Origin: Methylotenera sp.
Lineage (GTDB): Bacteria > Pseudomonadota > Gammaproteobacteria > Burkholderiales > Methylophilaceae
Assembly (NCBI GenBank): GCA_020622105.1
Contig: JAHRYP010000001.1
Location: 125,194-189,193 of the forward strand
Length of the DNA: 64,000 nucleotides
Direction of reading: 5' to 3'
The position numbers were made by a program, and so were the translations under genes. The notes below the pieces were generated by a model. The model worked only from the letters and a program-made list of their open reading frames with translations. It had not been told where the DNA came from and made no database searches. This document shows positions 4,703 through 54,629 of this stretch, in pieces. Numbering within the stretch: the first letter of the stretch is position 1; each line of letters starts with the position of its first letter.

Positions 4703-5838
4703 TTACCGTGCTTTCAGCAGAGAGTCAATAAGCTTGTTATAAGCAGATCTATAAGCTTCAATGCTGTGATTTTTCACAAGATAGTTATATACCTGTTCAC
4801 CTTTTGCGTTTAATGAGGCTGTCTCAAGACTTAGGTAGTCTTTTAACGCCTGGGTAAGGCTAGCTATATCTTTGGGTGGAACTGCAATGCCCCCTGCGCC
4901 GAGAATAATATCGCGCATTTCAGGGATATCAGAAGCAATCACCGGCAGGTGCCCGCTCATACCTTCCAGCAGCGCAAGTGGCAGACCTTCTTTTAGAGAG
5001 GGCATCGACCATATATCGAATGCCCTGACATATTGCAGCGCATTTTCTCTAAATCCAAGCAAATGAACCCGGTCTTGAAGTCCAAGTTGATGGATTTGAC
5101 TTTTGAGATTTTCTTCTTCATCCCCACGACCAATAATACCAATATGCGCATCAGGAAATTGGTGTTGTAAATTGCCAACGCTGAAATTAAACGATGACCC
5201 TTCCGGGAGAAAAGCTGGCCGATAGTGCCAATAATCAGTTTTTCTTGTGGTAATCCGAGTAACGAACGTGCTTCTGCTTTGGTCAGTTGTGACGATTCTG
5301 CTTTTGATATATCAATTGCATTGGGAATAGCGCAGGTGTTTTCCAGGTTAAATCCAGATTTGTAAGCAATCAGGCAAGATGCTACGGCATCAGATACCCC
5401 GACAAATTTCCAACGGCGATCAGCGAGTAGTTTGACCTGCAAGCGTCTGTAAGCCCGCTCATATTCATTTAATACATGGGATATTGCTATGCAGACAGGT
5501 ACTTTCAGTAGTTTATTAAGTTGTAATAAAAGGCTGACAGTCTTGAATCGATTACAGATGATGACATCGAATTTGTTTGCTTTACAGAACCAGTAGAGCT
5601 TCCATAGGGCTTTGAGCCTAATGCCATGCATGTCTTTTTCTGGGAGGTTGAAGTAATGCACATTTTTCGCGATGCTTCTTGGTTGATCCGGTCTAGGAGT
5701 GCCGGAAAAATAAGCTGAAGTGACTTCAAAACGGTCGCTAGGCAAAGCTTTGATGATTTGTTCTGCCAAGTCAGACACGTCGTTGGATTTGACATTGTAA
5801 TCAGGGTGAAGCTGGAGAACTTTTATAGTTTTATTCAT
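4703..5838 (-). pseudogene. Glycosyltransferase GT4 broken by one frameshift
   Basis: Two overlapping reading frames together make one complete GT4 enzyme. The first (from ATG 5838) runs through MNKTIKVLQLHPDYN and NAIDISKAE to GTIGQLFSRKGHR, then loses family resemblance. The other frame supplies QHQFPDAHIGIIGRGDEEE, LHLLGFRENALQYVRAFDIWSMPSLKEGLPLALLEGM and the C-terminus to 4703. The switch lies at about 5185-5200, just after the GxxxxRKGH motif, and one base restores a product of about 378 residues. All catalytic-domain motifs are conserved on both sides, so it is either a very recent mutation or a sequencing error. Position between waaF and the ligase indicates a core glycosyltransferase. 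Confidence 0.8.
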
Positions 5839-21532: not shown

Positions 21533-24500
21533 ATGGCAAAACGTACAGACATTAAAAGTATTCTAATTATCGGCGCAGGCCCTATCGTGATCGGTCAGGC
21601 CTGTGAGTTTGACTATTCCGGTGCGCAAGCCTGTAAAGCGCTGCGTGAAGAGGGTTATCGCGTTATTCTTGTGAATTCAAATCCGGCTACGATCATGACT
21701 GATCCGGAAATGGCTGATGCAACCTACATTGAGCCTGTGACTTGGCAAGTAGTCGAAAAAATTATCGAAAAAGAGCGCCCGGATGCGCTGTTGCCAACCA
21801 TGGGTGGCCAGACCGCTTTGAATTGTGCGCTGGATCTGGACAAACACGGCGTGCTCGCAAAATTCAACGTAGAGTTGATCGGCGCTTCAAAAGAGGCAAT
21901 TGACAAAGCTGAAGATCGCCAGAAATTTAAAGATGCAATGACCAAAATCGGTTTGGGCTCCGCCCGTTCCGCTGTTGCGCATAGCATGGAAGAAGCATTG
22001 CAGGTGCAGGCTACTATTGGCTATCCGGCGATTATTCGCCCGTCATTCACGATGGGCGGCAGCGGTGGCGGTATTGCTTATAACCGTGAAGAATTCATCG
22101 CCATCTGCGAGCGCGGTTTGGATGCCTCACCAACCAATGAGTTACTGATTGAAGAATCGCTGCTTGGCTGGAAAGAGTACGAGATGGAAGTTGTGCGTGA
22201 CTCTGCCGACAACTGCATCATCATCTGTTCAATCGAAAATCTGGATCCTATGGGTGTGCATACTGGTGACTCGATCACGGTTGCGCCTGCACAAACGTTG
22301 ACGGATAAAGAATATCAGATCATGCGTAACGCCAGCCTGGCTGTGCTTCGCGAGATTGGTGTTGATACTGGTGGTTCAAACGTGCAGTTTGCGATTAATC
22401 CTGACGATGGCCGCATGATCGTTATCGAGATGAACCCGCGTGTATCACGCTCATCTGCACTGGCTTCCAAAGCAACTGGCTTCCCAATTGCCAAAGTGGC
22501 TGCAAAACTGGCGGTTGGTTTTACGCTGGATGAGCTACGTAATGAAATTACCGGCGGTGCAACGCCTGCGTCTTTCGAGCCTAGTATCGATTACGTTGTG
22601 ACTAAAGTGCCGCGTTTTGCATTTGAGAAATTTCCGCAGGCAGATAGCCGACTGACAACACAGATGAAATCTGTAGGCGAGGTGATGGCCATTGGCCGCA
22701 CTTTCCAGGAATCATTCCAGAAAGCCATGCGTGGTTTGGAAGTTGGTGTCGATGGTCTGGATGAAAAAACCACAGACATGGACACGATTACTAAAGAAAT
22801 CGGTGTGCCTGGCCCTGAGCGTATCTGGTATGTGGGTGATGCATTCCGTATGGGCTTAAGTGTTGAGGATGTCTTCAATATTTCAAAAATCGACAGATGG
22901 TTTCTCACGCAGCTGAAAGATATTATCGATCGCGAACAGGCGCTGAAAGGCAGAAATCTTGCCGATCTGGATAAAGCTGCTTTGCTGCAACTGAAACGCC
23001 GTGGCTTCTCTGATCGTAGGCTGGCTAAACTGATGAATACTGACCAGCATGCGGTGCGTGCTTACCGTCAGGCTTTGAATGTGCGCCCTGTATACAAGCG
23101 TGTGGATACCTGTGCTGCCGAGTTTTCAACCAATACGGCTTACATGTACTCAACGTACGAAGAAGAGTGTGCGAAGCGCAGCCTACCAATAATAAAAAAT
23201 TATGGTGCTGGGCGGTGGTCCGAACTGTCGGAAGGTATTGAGTTCGATTATTGCTGTGTGCATGCGGCTTTTGCTATGCGTGAAGACACGAAACTATCAT
23301 GGTTAATCGTAACCTGAAACGGTTTCACTGATTACGACACTCAGATCGACTGTATTTTGAGCCAGTAACATTGGAAGATGTGCTCGAAATCGTAGCGCTG
23401 GAAAAACCGGTTGGTGTGATCGTTCAATACGGCGGCCAAACACCATTGAAACTGGCGCGTGAACTGGAAAAAGCCGGCGTGCCTATTATCGGTACTACAC
23501 CGGATGCGATTGACATGGCTGAAGACCGTGAGCGCTTCCAGAAAATGCTGCATGAATTAGGCCTGAAACAGCCACCTAACCGTACCGCACGTACCGAACA
23601 AGAAGCCTTGCGCTTGGCCGGTGAAATTGGCTACCCGTTAGTGGTGCGTCCTTCTTATGTTTTAGGCGGCCGTGCGATGGAAATCGTGCAGGAGCAAAGC
23701 CAGCTCGAGCGCTACATGCGTGAAGCGGTTAAAGTTTCAAACGAGTCACCGGTATTACTGGATCGTTTTCTCAATGATGCGCTTGAAGTGGATGTGGATG
23801 CATTGTCTGATGGCGTGGAAGTCATCATCGGCGGTATTATGGAACACGTTGAACAGGCGGGTGTACACTCAGGTGACTCAGCATGTTCATTGCCACCTTA
23901 CAGTTTGTCAGCTAAATTGCAGGATGAATTGCGTGTGCAAACCAAACAGATGGCAAAAGCTTTAGGCGTGGTTGGTTTAATGAACGTGCAGTTCGCGATT
24001 CAGGGTGAGACTGTTTATGTGCTCGAAGTGAATCCACGTGCTTCACGTACGGTGCCGTTTGTTTCTAAAGCTTGCGGTTTGCAGCTGGCTAAAGTTGCAG
24101 CGCGCTGCATGGTAGGGCAGTCACTTGCGTCACAGAATGTGACGCGTGAAATTGTGCCGCCGTTCTACTCAGTAAAAGAAGCAGTGTTCCCGTTCATCAA
24201 GTTTCCGGGTGTAGATACGATTCTTGGCCCAGAGATGAAGTCTACCGGTGAAGTGATGGGGGTAGGCAGAACGTTTGCCGAGGCATTCCTGAAGTCACAG
24301 TTGGGTGCTTCAACCAAGCTGCCTGAAGGTGGCCGTGCATTTATCAGCGTACGGAAAGAAGATTACGTTAAAGTGGTTGAGATTGCGCAGCAGCTGGATC
24401 GACTTGGTTTTGAGCTGGTTGCTACCAAAGGTACCGCAGCAGCTTTAACTGCAAGCGGCCTGCAAGTGCAGGCGGTGAACAAGGTGGCTGAAGGTCGTCC

Positions 24501-24726
24501 GCATATTGTTGATATGATCAAAAACGGTGATATCAGCTTTATTGTGAATGTGACTGAAGATAAACGTGCGGTTGCGGACTCATACGAGATTCGTCGCAGT
24601 GCATTGCAGAATAAAGTGACTTACTACACAACGCTGGCTGGCGCTAAAGCAGCATGTATCGGTATGGCGCACATGCAAGAAATTCAGGTAGAGTCATTAC
24701 AGAACTTGCATAAACAACTAAGCTAA
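21533..24726 (+). pseudogene. carB: Carbamoyl-phosphate synthase large subunit, disrupted by an indel patch
   Basis: Two ORFs (21533-23317, 23371-24726) are the two halves of CarB, about 1,070 residues if whole. The first has the carboxy-phosphate ATP-grasp domain ([20 protein letters not shown]) and oligomerisation region; the second the carbamate ATP-grasp domain ([14 protein letters not shown]) and C-terminal MGS-like allosteric domain. Between about 23170 and 23345 the expected sequence survives in short pieces in changing frames: [63 protein letters not shown]. All flanking sequence is intact, so a sequence error is likelier than loss of an essential gene. Confidence 0.9.
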
Positions 24727-28824: not shown

Positions 28825-29658
28825 ATGAATACCAATACGCAATTTCTTTGTGGCAGATTTCAGCTTGATTTGACTCGACCCCATGTCATGGGTATCGTCA
28901 ACGTCACGCCTGATTCATTTTCTGATGGCGGAAAATATTCTTCAGTCGAACGGGCTGTTGAGCATGCTTTACAGTTAATCGCCGAAGGTGCGGATATTCT
29001 GGACATCGGTGGTGAATCTACCCGTCCGGGTGCAGCCCCCGTAGGTTTGGATGAAGAGCTTAGGCGCGTGATACCGGTGATTGAGGCCTTGAGCAAAGTA
29101 ACAACAGTACCGCTTTCTATTGATACTTATAAACCTGAAGTCATGCGCGCTGCAATTCAGGCGGGTGCAGACATTGTGAATGATATATGTGCGTTAAGGG
29201 AAGAAGGTGCGCTTGAAATTGTTGCCAATAGCAATGCTGGCGTCTGTCTGATGCACATGCAGGGCATTCCGCAGACCATGCAGATTAATCCGCAATATAC
29301 CGATGTAGTTAGTGAAGTAAAACAGTTTTTAGCTGACAGGGTAGAGGCATGTCTGACACATGGTATTGCCAGTGAGCGCATCACGCTTGATCCCGGTTTC
29401 GGGTTTGGTAAAACCACTGCGCATAATGTTGCATTGATTCAGCATCTGGATAGTTTTGTAGAGTTAGGGTTTCCGCTTCTGGTGGGGCTTTCACGTAAAT
29501 CGGTACTGGGCAGGATTGCCGGTGGAGATGAGCAGCAGCGTTTGCATGCTGGGTTGGCTGCTTCTGTAATATCCGTGATGAAGGGTGCGAAAATTGTGCG
29601 GGTGCATGACGTTAAGGCGACGGTGGATGCGCTTAAGGTGGTTGCAGCTGTAATGTAG
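28825..29658 (+). CDS. folP: Dihydropteroate synthase
   Basis: Condenses p-aminobenzoate with dihydropterin pyrophosphate in folate synthesis. It is a 277-residue TIM barrel with HVMGIVNVTPDSFSDGGKY near residue 20, DILDIGGESTRPGAAP near residue 57, ADIVNDICALREE near residue 113, LDPGFGFGKT near residue 188, VGLSRKS near residue 213 and the final VRVHDVKAT. It starts at ATG 28825, close behind the ftsH terminator. The usual downstream partner glmM follows after a 283-nt gap occupied by a structured repeat. Confidence 0.97.
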   Translation: MNTNTQFLCGRFQLDLTRPHVMGIVNVTPDSFSDGGKYSSVERAVEHALQLIAEGADILDIGGESTRPGAAPVGLDEELRRVIPVIEALSKVTTVPLSIDTYKPEVMRAAIQAGADIVNDICALREEGALEIVANSNAGVCLMHMQGIPQTMQINPQYTDVVSEVKQFLADRVEACLTHGIASERITLDPGFGFGKTTAHNVALIQHLDSFVELGFPLLVGLSRKSVLGRIAGGDEQQRLHAGLAASVISVMKGAKIVRVHDVKATVDALKVVAAVM

Positions 29659-29680: not shown

Positions 29681-29875
29681 GGTCGGTCTCGACCGACAGT
29701 CGAGATACTTTTTCTTGCTTAGCCAAGAAAAAGTATCCAAAAAGAAGGCTACCCTCAGCCATTTGTTTCCTGTGTTGCTCATCATGATGGGCGGCAATCG
29801 GAAACTCGCTACGCTCAAACAGCCGATTGCCGAGTACCCCCATCATGATTGCGCTACTCGGCATGGCTGAAGGGG
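29681..29875 (+). repeat. Structured dispersed repeat, copy A
   Basis: Non-coding element filling the folP-glmM gap. Hairpin P1: CTCGAC-CGACA-GTCGAG. Hairpin P2 (29705-29736): ATACTTTTTCTTG-CTTAGC-CAAGAAAAAGTAT, perfect. P3: outer stem CCCTCAGCC with GGCTGA-A-GGGG, enclosing ATCATGATGGG/CCCATCATGAT and GGCAATCGG/CCGATTGCC. Boxes AAACTCGC, CGCTCAAACA and TGCGCTACTCGGC lie outside the helices. Other copies in this window keep the same helices with different sequences. The ORF at 29667-29948 minus is a shadow of this repeat. Confidence 0.85.
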
Positions 29876-45873: not shown

Positions 45874-45929
45874 ATGGTCGCTCTCGTGTGATTTTTAAAC
45901 TATTTTTTTATAAGTTTTCAGCTTGCGTT

Positions 45930-46118
45930 TCGCCTCTAGGCGAGTTTCTTTCTTTTGCTTAGCCAAAAGAAAGAAACCAAAGAAAAAGCTACCACCTGCC
46001 GCTTAATCCTCAATTTTGAATAAATCTTGAGCGGCAGCCGGAAACTCGCTAGCGCTTAGACAGCCGTCTGCCGAATACTCTCAAGATTTACTCAAAATTG
46101 AGGCGCGTCAGCAGTGGG
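45930..46118 (+). repeat. Structured dispersed repeat, copy B
   Basis: Lies after bioD. P1 is CGCC-TCTA-GGCG; P2 (45944-45977) is GTTTCTTTCTTTT-GCTTAGCC-AAAAGAAAGAAAC; P3 has outer CCAC-CTGCCGC against GCGTCAG-CA-GTGG, a long CCTCAATTTTGAATAAATC.. stem pairing with ..GATTTACTCAAAATTGAGG (one mismatch), and CGGCAGCCGG against CCGTCTGCCG. The AAACTCGC box is present; the TGCGCTACTC box found in the other copies is missing. Confidence 0.8.
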
Positions 46119-46218: not shown

Positions 46219-46484
46219 ACCCTTTCTACCGCGCTGAGTAGCGCAGACTTAATGGGGGATTTCGGCAAGCGGTTGTTTGAGCTCAATTGTTTTTATTGGG
46301 CGAGTTTTCACAACAGAACAATTGCTTTAGCAATTCGTGATGTTGGGGAAGACCCTTGCGGTCTCCGATTGCCGCTCATTAAGGCGAGCAACGGAAGAAA
46401 GAGCGGTAGAGGGTAGCCTTTTCTTTTCCTCATTTCTTTTGGTTAAGCAAAAGAAATGAGGTCGCCAGCCGGGCGAGACCGGCT
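46219..46484 (-). repeat. Structured dispersed repeat, copy B2, opposite orientation
   Basis: Read on the minus strand: P1 AGCCGG-TCTCG-CCGGCT with one extra loop base, P2 CCTCATTTCTTTT-GCTTAACC-AAAAGAAATGAGG (46428-46461), outer P3 stem ACCCTCTACCGC with GCGGTAG-AA-AGGGT, an inner CTTAATG/CATTAAG stem, and the boxes AAAACTCGC, GCTCAAACA and TGCGCTACTCAGC. It also has two accessory hairpins (AGACC-GCAAG-GGTCT and AATTGC-TAAA-GCAATT). With copy B it forms an inverted pair filling the 632-nt bioD / M48 gap. The 71-aa ORF at 46201 is a shadow. Confidence 0.8.
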
Positions 46485-54368: not shown

Positions 54369-54629
54369 GTCGGGGTTGCCCGACGGCAAGGCACTTTATT
54401 TTGCTTGTCCAAAATAAAGTGCCCAAACAAAATGACACCCCCTGTCGCTCACACTTTGCTTGCCACTTTTAGTGGCTTAGCAAATTGGGGAAGCCCTTCA
54501 CGGGCTTCCTGCGTTGCTCGCCTTAATGGGCGGCAATCGAAAACTCGCCCAATAAAATCATTTGGGCTCAACAGCCGATTGCCGAAAACTCCCATTAAGA
54601 CTGCGCTACTCGGCGCGACAGCAGGGGGG
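54369..54629 (+). repeat. Structured dispersed repeat, copy C (largest)
   Basis: P1 is GTCGGG-GTTG-CCCGAC; P2 (54390-54423) is GGCACTTTATTTT-GCTTGTCC-AAAATAAAGTGCC; P3 outer is CCCCCTGTCGC with GCGACAG-CA-GGGGG; inner CTTAATGGG/CCCATTAAG and CGGCAATCG/CCGATTGCCG are perfect. Extra hairpins GCCAC-TTTTA-GTGGC, GGAAGCCC-TTCAC-GGGCTTCC and CCCAA..TTGGG decorate the loops. Boxes AAACTCGC, GCTCAACAG and TGCGCTACTCGGC are present. The ORF at 54363-54740 plus is a shadow. Confidence 0.85.

Follow-up and report, generated by a model that had tools for sequence, protein, structure and literature searches.

A mobile intergenic repeat family of Methylotenera and other bacteria, conserved as a pseudoknotted fold that may form in single-stranded DNA

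The repeat analyzed here was best explained as a mobile intergenic module that is conserved as a strand-specific fold of single-stranded DNA, is carried as a passenger of MITEs and is bounded by outer terminators; a probability of about 0.4 was given to this reading as a whole. Confidence was very high for two of its parts, the structural conservation of the family and the mobility of its units. The family core was ~195 nt and pseudoknotted; judged from the aligned copies, the element runs along the minus strand from P3, a long hairpin, through a pseudoknot with a linker-matched P2 stem to hairpin P1.

The window, that is, the whole 64,000-nt stretch of Methylotenera DNA analyzed, contained four copies (A to D), and reading the sequence found each of them where the initial annotation had placed it (29681, 45930, 46219 on the minus strand, and 54369), with the architecture of P1, P2 and P3 shared by all four. 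The host Methylotenera genome (G000; 2.50 Mb, 53 contigs) harbored 12 family copies as found with covariance model R1. The window copies and the parts of copy A were as follows:

Copy A: 29681..29875, read as plus, folding strand minus; between folP (stop at 29658) and glmM.
Copy B: about 45922-46117, read as plus, folding strand minus; lies downstream of bioD and forms a convergent pair with C, as its first arm.
Copy C: 46220-46483, read as minus, folding strand plus; lies 102 nt from B, as its inverted partner, and downstream of an M48-family protease gene.
Copy D: 54369-54627, read as plus, folding strand minus; its P3 carries an additional branched insertion in the 5' arm.
Copy A, P1a: 29681..29697, no strand assigned; hairpin GGTCGGTCTCGACCGAC, alternative to P1b (sequence, MFE structure).
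Copy A, P1b with T-rich tract: 29686..29716, plus strand; terminator-like on the plus strand, facing transcription from folP.
Copy A, P2: 29704..29737, minus strand; 14-bp stem GATACTTTTTCTTG / CAAGAAAAAGTATC with loop CTTAGC.
Copy A, P2-loop strand of the pseudoknot: 29720..29724, minus strand; TAGCC on the plus strand (covariation).
Copy A, linker: 29738..29746, minus strand; reads CAAAAAGAA on the plus strand and TTCTTTTTG on the one that folds; putative third strand in a triplex.
Copy A, downstream strand of the pseudoknot: 29747..29751, minus strand; GGCTA on the plus strand, 91% of cells paired (pseudoknot helix).
Copy A, P3: 29752..29875, minus strand; long branched hairpin (covariation, MFE structure).
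Copy A, P3 outer stem: CCCTCAGCC / GGCTG-AA-GGGG, with a two-base bulge.
Copy A, P3 inner stem: GGCGGCAATCGG / CCGATTGCCG.
Copy A, P3 apex: 29808..29814, minus strand; GCGTAGC on the folding strand, a GTA loop on two G-C pairs.

Elsewhere in the window, carB (carbamoyl-phosphate synthase large subunit; 21533-24726) was split into two ORFs with the frame locally scrambled near 23.2-23.4 kb, which looks like the result of several indels, due either to assembly errors or to a pseudogene, and a glycosyltransferase gene (4703-5838, minus strand) was divided between two overlapping ORFs that differ in frame and is probably frameshifted.

Folding with RNA parameters gave z = -6.5 for copy A and z = -10.2 for copy D, each beyond every dinucleotide shuffle. 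The covariation set was composed of 60 aligned Methylotenera copies with a consensus structure of 43 pairs: standard pairs occupied 92.9% of 2566 pair cells versus 34-51% after the 3' side had been slid, double changes occurred in 32 of the 43 pairs, and double-change cells numbered 193 versus 47 in shuffles, a value reached by 0 of 500 shuffles. Covariation far above both the slid and the shuffled controls bore out the compensatory changes proposed at first, and the compensatory helices quoted there, as well as the two-base bulge in outer P3, were present in the copies. The unpaired boxes had been called constant, but they varied even within the window: copy B had GCTTAGACA and copy D GCTCAACA, while box TGCGCTACTCGGC was exact in A and D only, read TGCGCTACTCAGC in C and was absent from B; many copies had a perfect long helix in place of TGCGCTACTCGGC. 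P1, as read by eye, was composed of two overlapping alternative hairpins. A pseudoknot, in which the P2 loop paired with a box ten bases past P2, had been missed; its strands co-varied as TAGCC/GGCTA, TGTC/GACA, TGCTC/GAGCA and TGCC/GGCA, and as TCGCC/GGCGA and CGTGC/GCACG in distant taxa.

The linker after P2 tracked both P2 strands letter by letter, as in the P2/linker pairs CTTTCTTTT/CAAAGAAAA, CTTTTCTTT/CAAAAGAAA, CTTTTTCTT/CAAAAAGAA, CTTTCTCTT/CAAAGAGAA, CTTTATTTT/CAAACAAAA, CTTTCATTT/CAAAGCAAA and CTTATCTTT/CAACAGAAA, among others. On the complementary strand, the linker spelled the parallel pyrimidine-motif code T.A-T, C+.G-C and G.T-A, which is established for triplexes. The fit was exact in 14 of 39 distinct P2/linker combinations (at most 8 of 39 in 5000 permutations), these combinations covering about 107 of 143 copies, and 32 of 62 C/A positions fitted the code (permuted mean 14, maximum 26). 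From this covariation, the linker is proposed with high confidence to be the third strand of a triplex on the folding strand. A reading of the linker as the minor-groove strand of a plus-strand RNA was dropped because the strand test (see below) made the pyrimidine-motif reading simpler.

Mismatches on the plus strand comprised 69 A.C versus 27 G.T in a structure-blind alignment, with the excess found in every helix; single mismatches in P3, with each distinct context counted once, comprised 34 A.C versus 8 G.T (p = 7e-5), divided as 16:4 in Methylotenera and 18:4 in other taxa. Since an A.C mismatch reads as G.T on the opposite strand, the folding strand would be, with high confidence, the minus strand, the complement of the strand that had been read at first; a plus-strand RNA as the conserved fold was contradicted by the same asymmetry and was rejected. 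The bias is not absolute, amounting to about 4:1, and the picture was mixed, with the opposite bias for inner P3 (53 G.T, 15 A.C), in the model-fitted alignment A2, which was given less trust because a covariance model favors G-U when aligning.

At the P3 apex on the minus strand, GNA accounted for 56 of 63 triloops and GNNA for 16 of 20 tetraloops, counts that, like those of the strand test, come from related sequences. GNA triloops occur in RNA also; the tetraloops were mostly GNYA, outside the RNA GNRA class. Extra-stable, nuclease-resistant DNA mini-hairpins, d(GCGNAGC), are characterized by a GNA/GNNA loop closed by at least two G-C pairs (PMC4686876), and the P3 apex on the minus strand nearly always had this form. 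Upstream of the minus strand, no promoter enrichment was found and the best scores were below those of shuffles. The GNA/GNNA apex loops, the GNYA tetraloops and the absence of a promoter signal before the minus strand together make single-stranded DNA the better guess, and it may be said with moderate confidence to fit the fold better than RNA. The initial annotation had offered a structured RNA or a transposed single-stranded-DNA element; the DNA half of that proposal fits better, but on the complementary strand, and the RNA half fits less well.

RNA could adopt the same pairing, triplex and pseudoknot, and the minus strand may act as a non-coding RNA that is borne by a transposon and is stabilized, or bound to protein, through a telomerase-like U.A-U triplex pseudoknot; a convergent pair would then give two RNAs running outward from its spacer. 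The evidence on strand, pseudoknot and triplex applies to such an RNA as well, and plant and fungal transposon RNAs with stabilizing triple helices are known. This alternative was considered somewhat unlikely: besides the missing promoter signal and the GNYA loops, it is opposed by the absence of any terminator-like site on the minus strand, by the absence of an Rfam family, and by the orientation of copies between co-directional genes (28:8, with neighbor genes called here and below by a simple ORF rule), which placed the minus strand in antisense orientation to both neighbors in 28 of 36 gene pairs.

Among the 52 pairs of copies within 300 nt (some loci overlapped, so not all pairs are independent), 46 were convergent, 5 divergent and 1 tandem; convergent copies had their 3' ends facing, as B and C did in the window, and 19 of 20 copies in one complete genome belonged to convergent pairs, with a single triple among them. 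As close copies were mostly convergent, each strand of a pair carries one properly oriented fold near the unit's 3' side; this argument covers paired copies only, and many copies are single. Nine convergent pairs were 0.8-2.5 kb apart, several of them enclosing accessory genes, and no transposase was found among the ORFs scanned between the arms of wide pairs. Products encoded between wide convergent elements included Shedu SduA (L201 1007-2536), FRG/PDC-S15 (L197 905-2230), HEPN (L211 979-3491) and an unknown 175-aa protein (L085 368-1501).

Several motifs accompanied the copies: (i) a conserved tail GGGG-ATTTAAAGTCAAAACC that borders many Methylotenera copies on their 3' side (e.g., L024, L037, L067, and L071), often followed by short REP-like palindromes (GTCATTCCCGCG..GCGGGAATCC, GTAGGGTGGG..CCCACC); (ii) AAAGTCAAAACC-like tails in distant taxa as well (L213 and L195); and (iii) AAGTGCGGT, the Pasteurellaceae DNA-uptake signal, within the spacer of a convergent pair (L128 1410-1500, genome G494).

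The upstream gene lay on the same strand in 61 of the 73 Methylotenera copies that had a called upstream gene, usually <50 nt from its stop codon, and the P1/P2 boundary was terminator-like on the plus strand, toward transcription coming in from outside the unit, in 50 of 75 and 46 of 91 copies (mononucleotide shuffles predict 1.9 and 2.7); the minus strand of the same copy sets had no such site. Both observations would suit a plus strand that functions as RNA within the upstream gene's 3' untranslated region, with an intrinsic terminator (P1b plus T tract) followed by mRNA-protecting or processing structures, like REP/BIME. Such a role was judged unlikely: the minus-strand mismatch bias, the triplex code and the loops are left unexplained by it, with a terminator at the 5' edge, most transcripts would end before reaching the remainder of the element, and antisense copies exist (copy D).

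Recent duplicates with unrelated flanks and target duplications confirmed that the family is mobile. Units with TIRs and target duplications were found in two genomes: (i) in G491, units were 454-455-bp MITEs, 95.8-97.4% alike, in unrelated flanks, with TIR CAGGGYAAACGCATTAAAA and 10-bp target duplications (GTGTGGAGCA and GGCGGTTTGG), and three 1.2-kb copies shared the MITE ends, one examined copy encoding an ISAs1 transposase; and (ii) in G652, units were about 523 bp, 99% alike and contained two elements each, with ends GGTTCWTCGCG common to ISL3 fragments at two contig ends and 7-8-bp A/T target duplications. Element-free MITEs with the same ends outnumbered the element-bearing ones in G491, which contained many 184-bp ISAs1-ended MITEs without the element and with 9-10-bp target duplications (L298-L322). 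The ISL3 gene at L328 lacked the MITE ends. A pair of about 690 bp was duplicated at 93% in unrelated flanks in G593, homology started near P1 on both sides in G535, and G336 displayed MITE behavior as in G491 and G652. The folP-glmM gap contained the element in the host genome and in G011 and was short and empty in most relatives; in G017, a copy lay just upstream of glmM (L034). No TIR was found in the Methylotenera copies, and the ISL3-type end was absent from the host genome. With ISAs1 ends in G491, ISL3 ends in G652, and copies devoid of TIR, the same fold was thus carried by unrelated vehicles.

A REP-associated (Y1) transposase, which had been raised as a possible partner, did not hold up as a general requirement: Y1_Tnp (PF01797) was not found in the host genome and was absent from 20 of 94 element-bearing genomes. 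The presence of a Y1 transposase was weakly associated with that of the element (odds ratio 2, p = 0.015), which may reflect genome size, and the transposases tied to recent copies were of DDE types. That the repeat is an ordinary MITE or REP-like repeat, with its structure a functionless by-product of inverted repeats and homogenization, is suggested by the clear MITE behavior in G491, G652 and G336 and by the age and divergence of the Methylotenera copies, but is improbable given the double changes, the pseudoknot and the three-strand code kept among widely differing copies and the same fold in units with unrelated ends.

The search of order, class and phylum samples with the covariance model extended the family far beyond its host: R1 matches were found in 87 of 250 genomes (48 of 121 genera) of the order, in 94 of 370 genomes (77 of 273 genera) of the class Gammaproteobacteria, and, in a sample of the phylum, in 45 of 299 genomes, nearly all of which belonged either to that class or to one further family. 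Many of the genomes in these large scans were drafts or derived from metagenomes, and the number of matches listed per genome was capped. A more distant match with P2, pseudoknot and bulged P3 was located on an Ilyobacter polytropus megaplasmid (Fusobacteriota), and, in the plasmid and phage search, related P2 regions were confined to three large Pasteurella multocida records plus one Ilyobacter megaplasmid. The window copy had 0 matches among plasmids and phages, and one Pasteurellaceae-like copy had no match in Escherichia coli genomes. Rfam gave 0 matches in the window at gathering score and sub-threshold matches only for seven loci (E 0.05-5), which places the family outside Rfam, and no description of it was found in the literature searched by sequence, by features and through work on MITEs and IS. 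Its non-coding nature, as proposed initially, was supported by three tested ORFs overlapping elements, which had no Pfam or NCBIfam match. The family is common and has been overlooked by Rfam and by the annotation examined, and it overlaps spurious small ORFs.

The single-stranded DNA reading would work as follows. The fold would form when its strand is exposed during replication, repair or DNA transfer, resist nucleases as a folded single strand, and be bound by a widely shared factor, which would let the module persist and spread as a passenger in MITEs that resident transposases mobilize. Outer P1/P2 terminators would shield unit and host from read-through, and this protection would explain the position just after stop codons; convergent pairing would suit a process that exposes either strand. 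Confidence in this cellular role, an insulated and strand-symmetric passenger module, is low, and the passenger model gives no reason for unrelated MITEs sharing the same module. A bolder form, in which a mobile family conserved as single-stranded DNA maintains a DNA triplex pseudoknot, is arranged in inverted pairs that give either strand one fold, serves as a module of unrelated transposons and brackets accessory (defense) genes as cassettes, is offered as a tentative possibility. If the fold is single-stranded DNA, it would represent a DNA triplex pseudoknot that arose naturally and has been tested by evolution, and would give mobile elements a new route to persistence; if it is RNA, bacterial transposons would carry a triple helix of the telomerase type. 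In both cases, the family marks mobile spots that collect defense genes.

Comparison was made with known systems. REP/REPIN/BIME repeats with RAYT (TnpA-REP, Y1) are likewise intergenic, multicopy, hairpin-forming and strand-specific, often in inverted pairs and often after genes, but their hairpins are 20-40 nt with a GTAG/GGAG foot, versus ~200 nt with a pseudoknot and a proposed triplex here, and the present family is independent of Y1_Tnp. BRE of Betaproteobacteria is also intergenic with signs of mobility, and is set apart by its description as a repeat of about 90 bp with 69% G+C in tandem arrays (PMC3110155). Integron attC sites, compared by fold and order only, are conserved as a folded single strand and can adjoin mobile single genes, as here, but the present elements are larger, pseudoknotted and convergent (46 of 52 close pairs) as opposed to head-to-tail cassettes. 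MITEs (Correia/NEMIS, ERIC, BOX, and bcr1) share non-autonomy and intergenic location, and the units in G491 (ISAs1) and G652 (ISL3) had, as MITEs do, the TIRs of a resident IS together with target-site duplications; the family differs in that one fold was found across unrelated TIRs and in copies without TIR, and we know of no description of third-strand covariation for MITEs. In telomerase RNA pseudoknots and transposon-RNA triple helices, a pyrimidine-rich loop of an H-type pseudoknot lies in the major groove and forms Hoogsteen triples. The present family has in common with them the H-type pseudoknot and a pyrimidine-rich third strand, which covaried with both stem strands by the Hoogsteen code, but it is bacterial, a repeat and probably formed at the DNA level.
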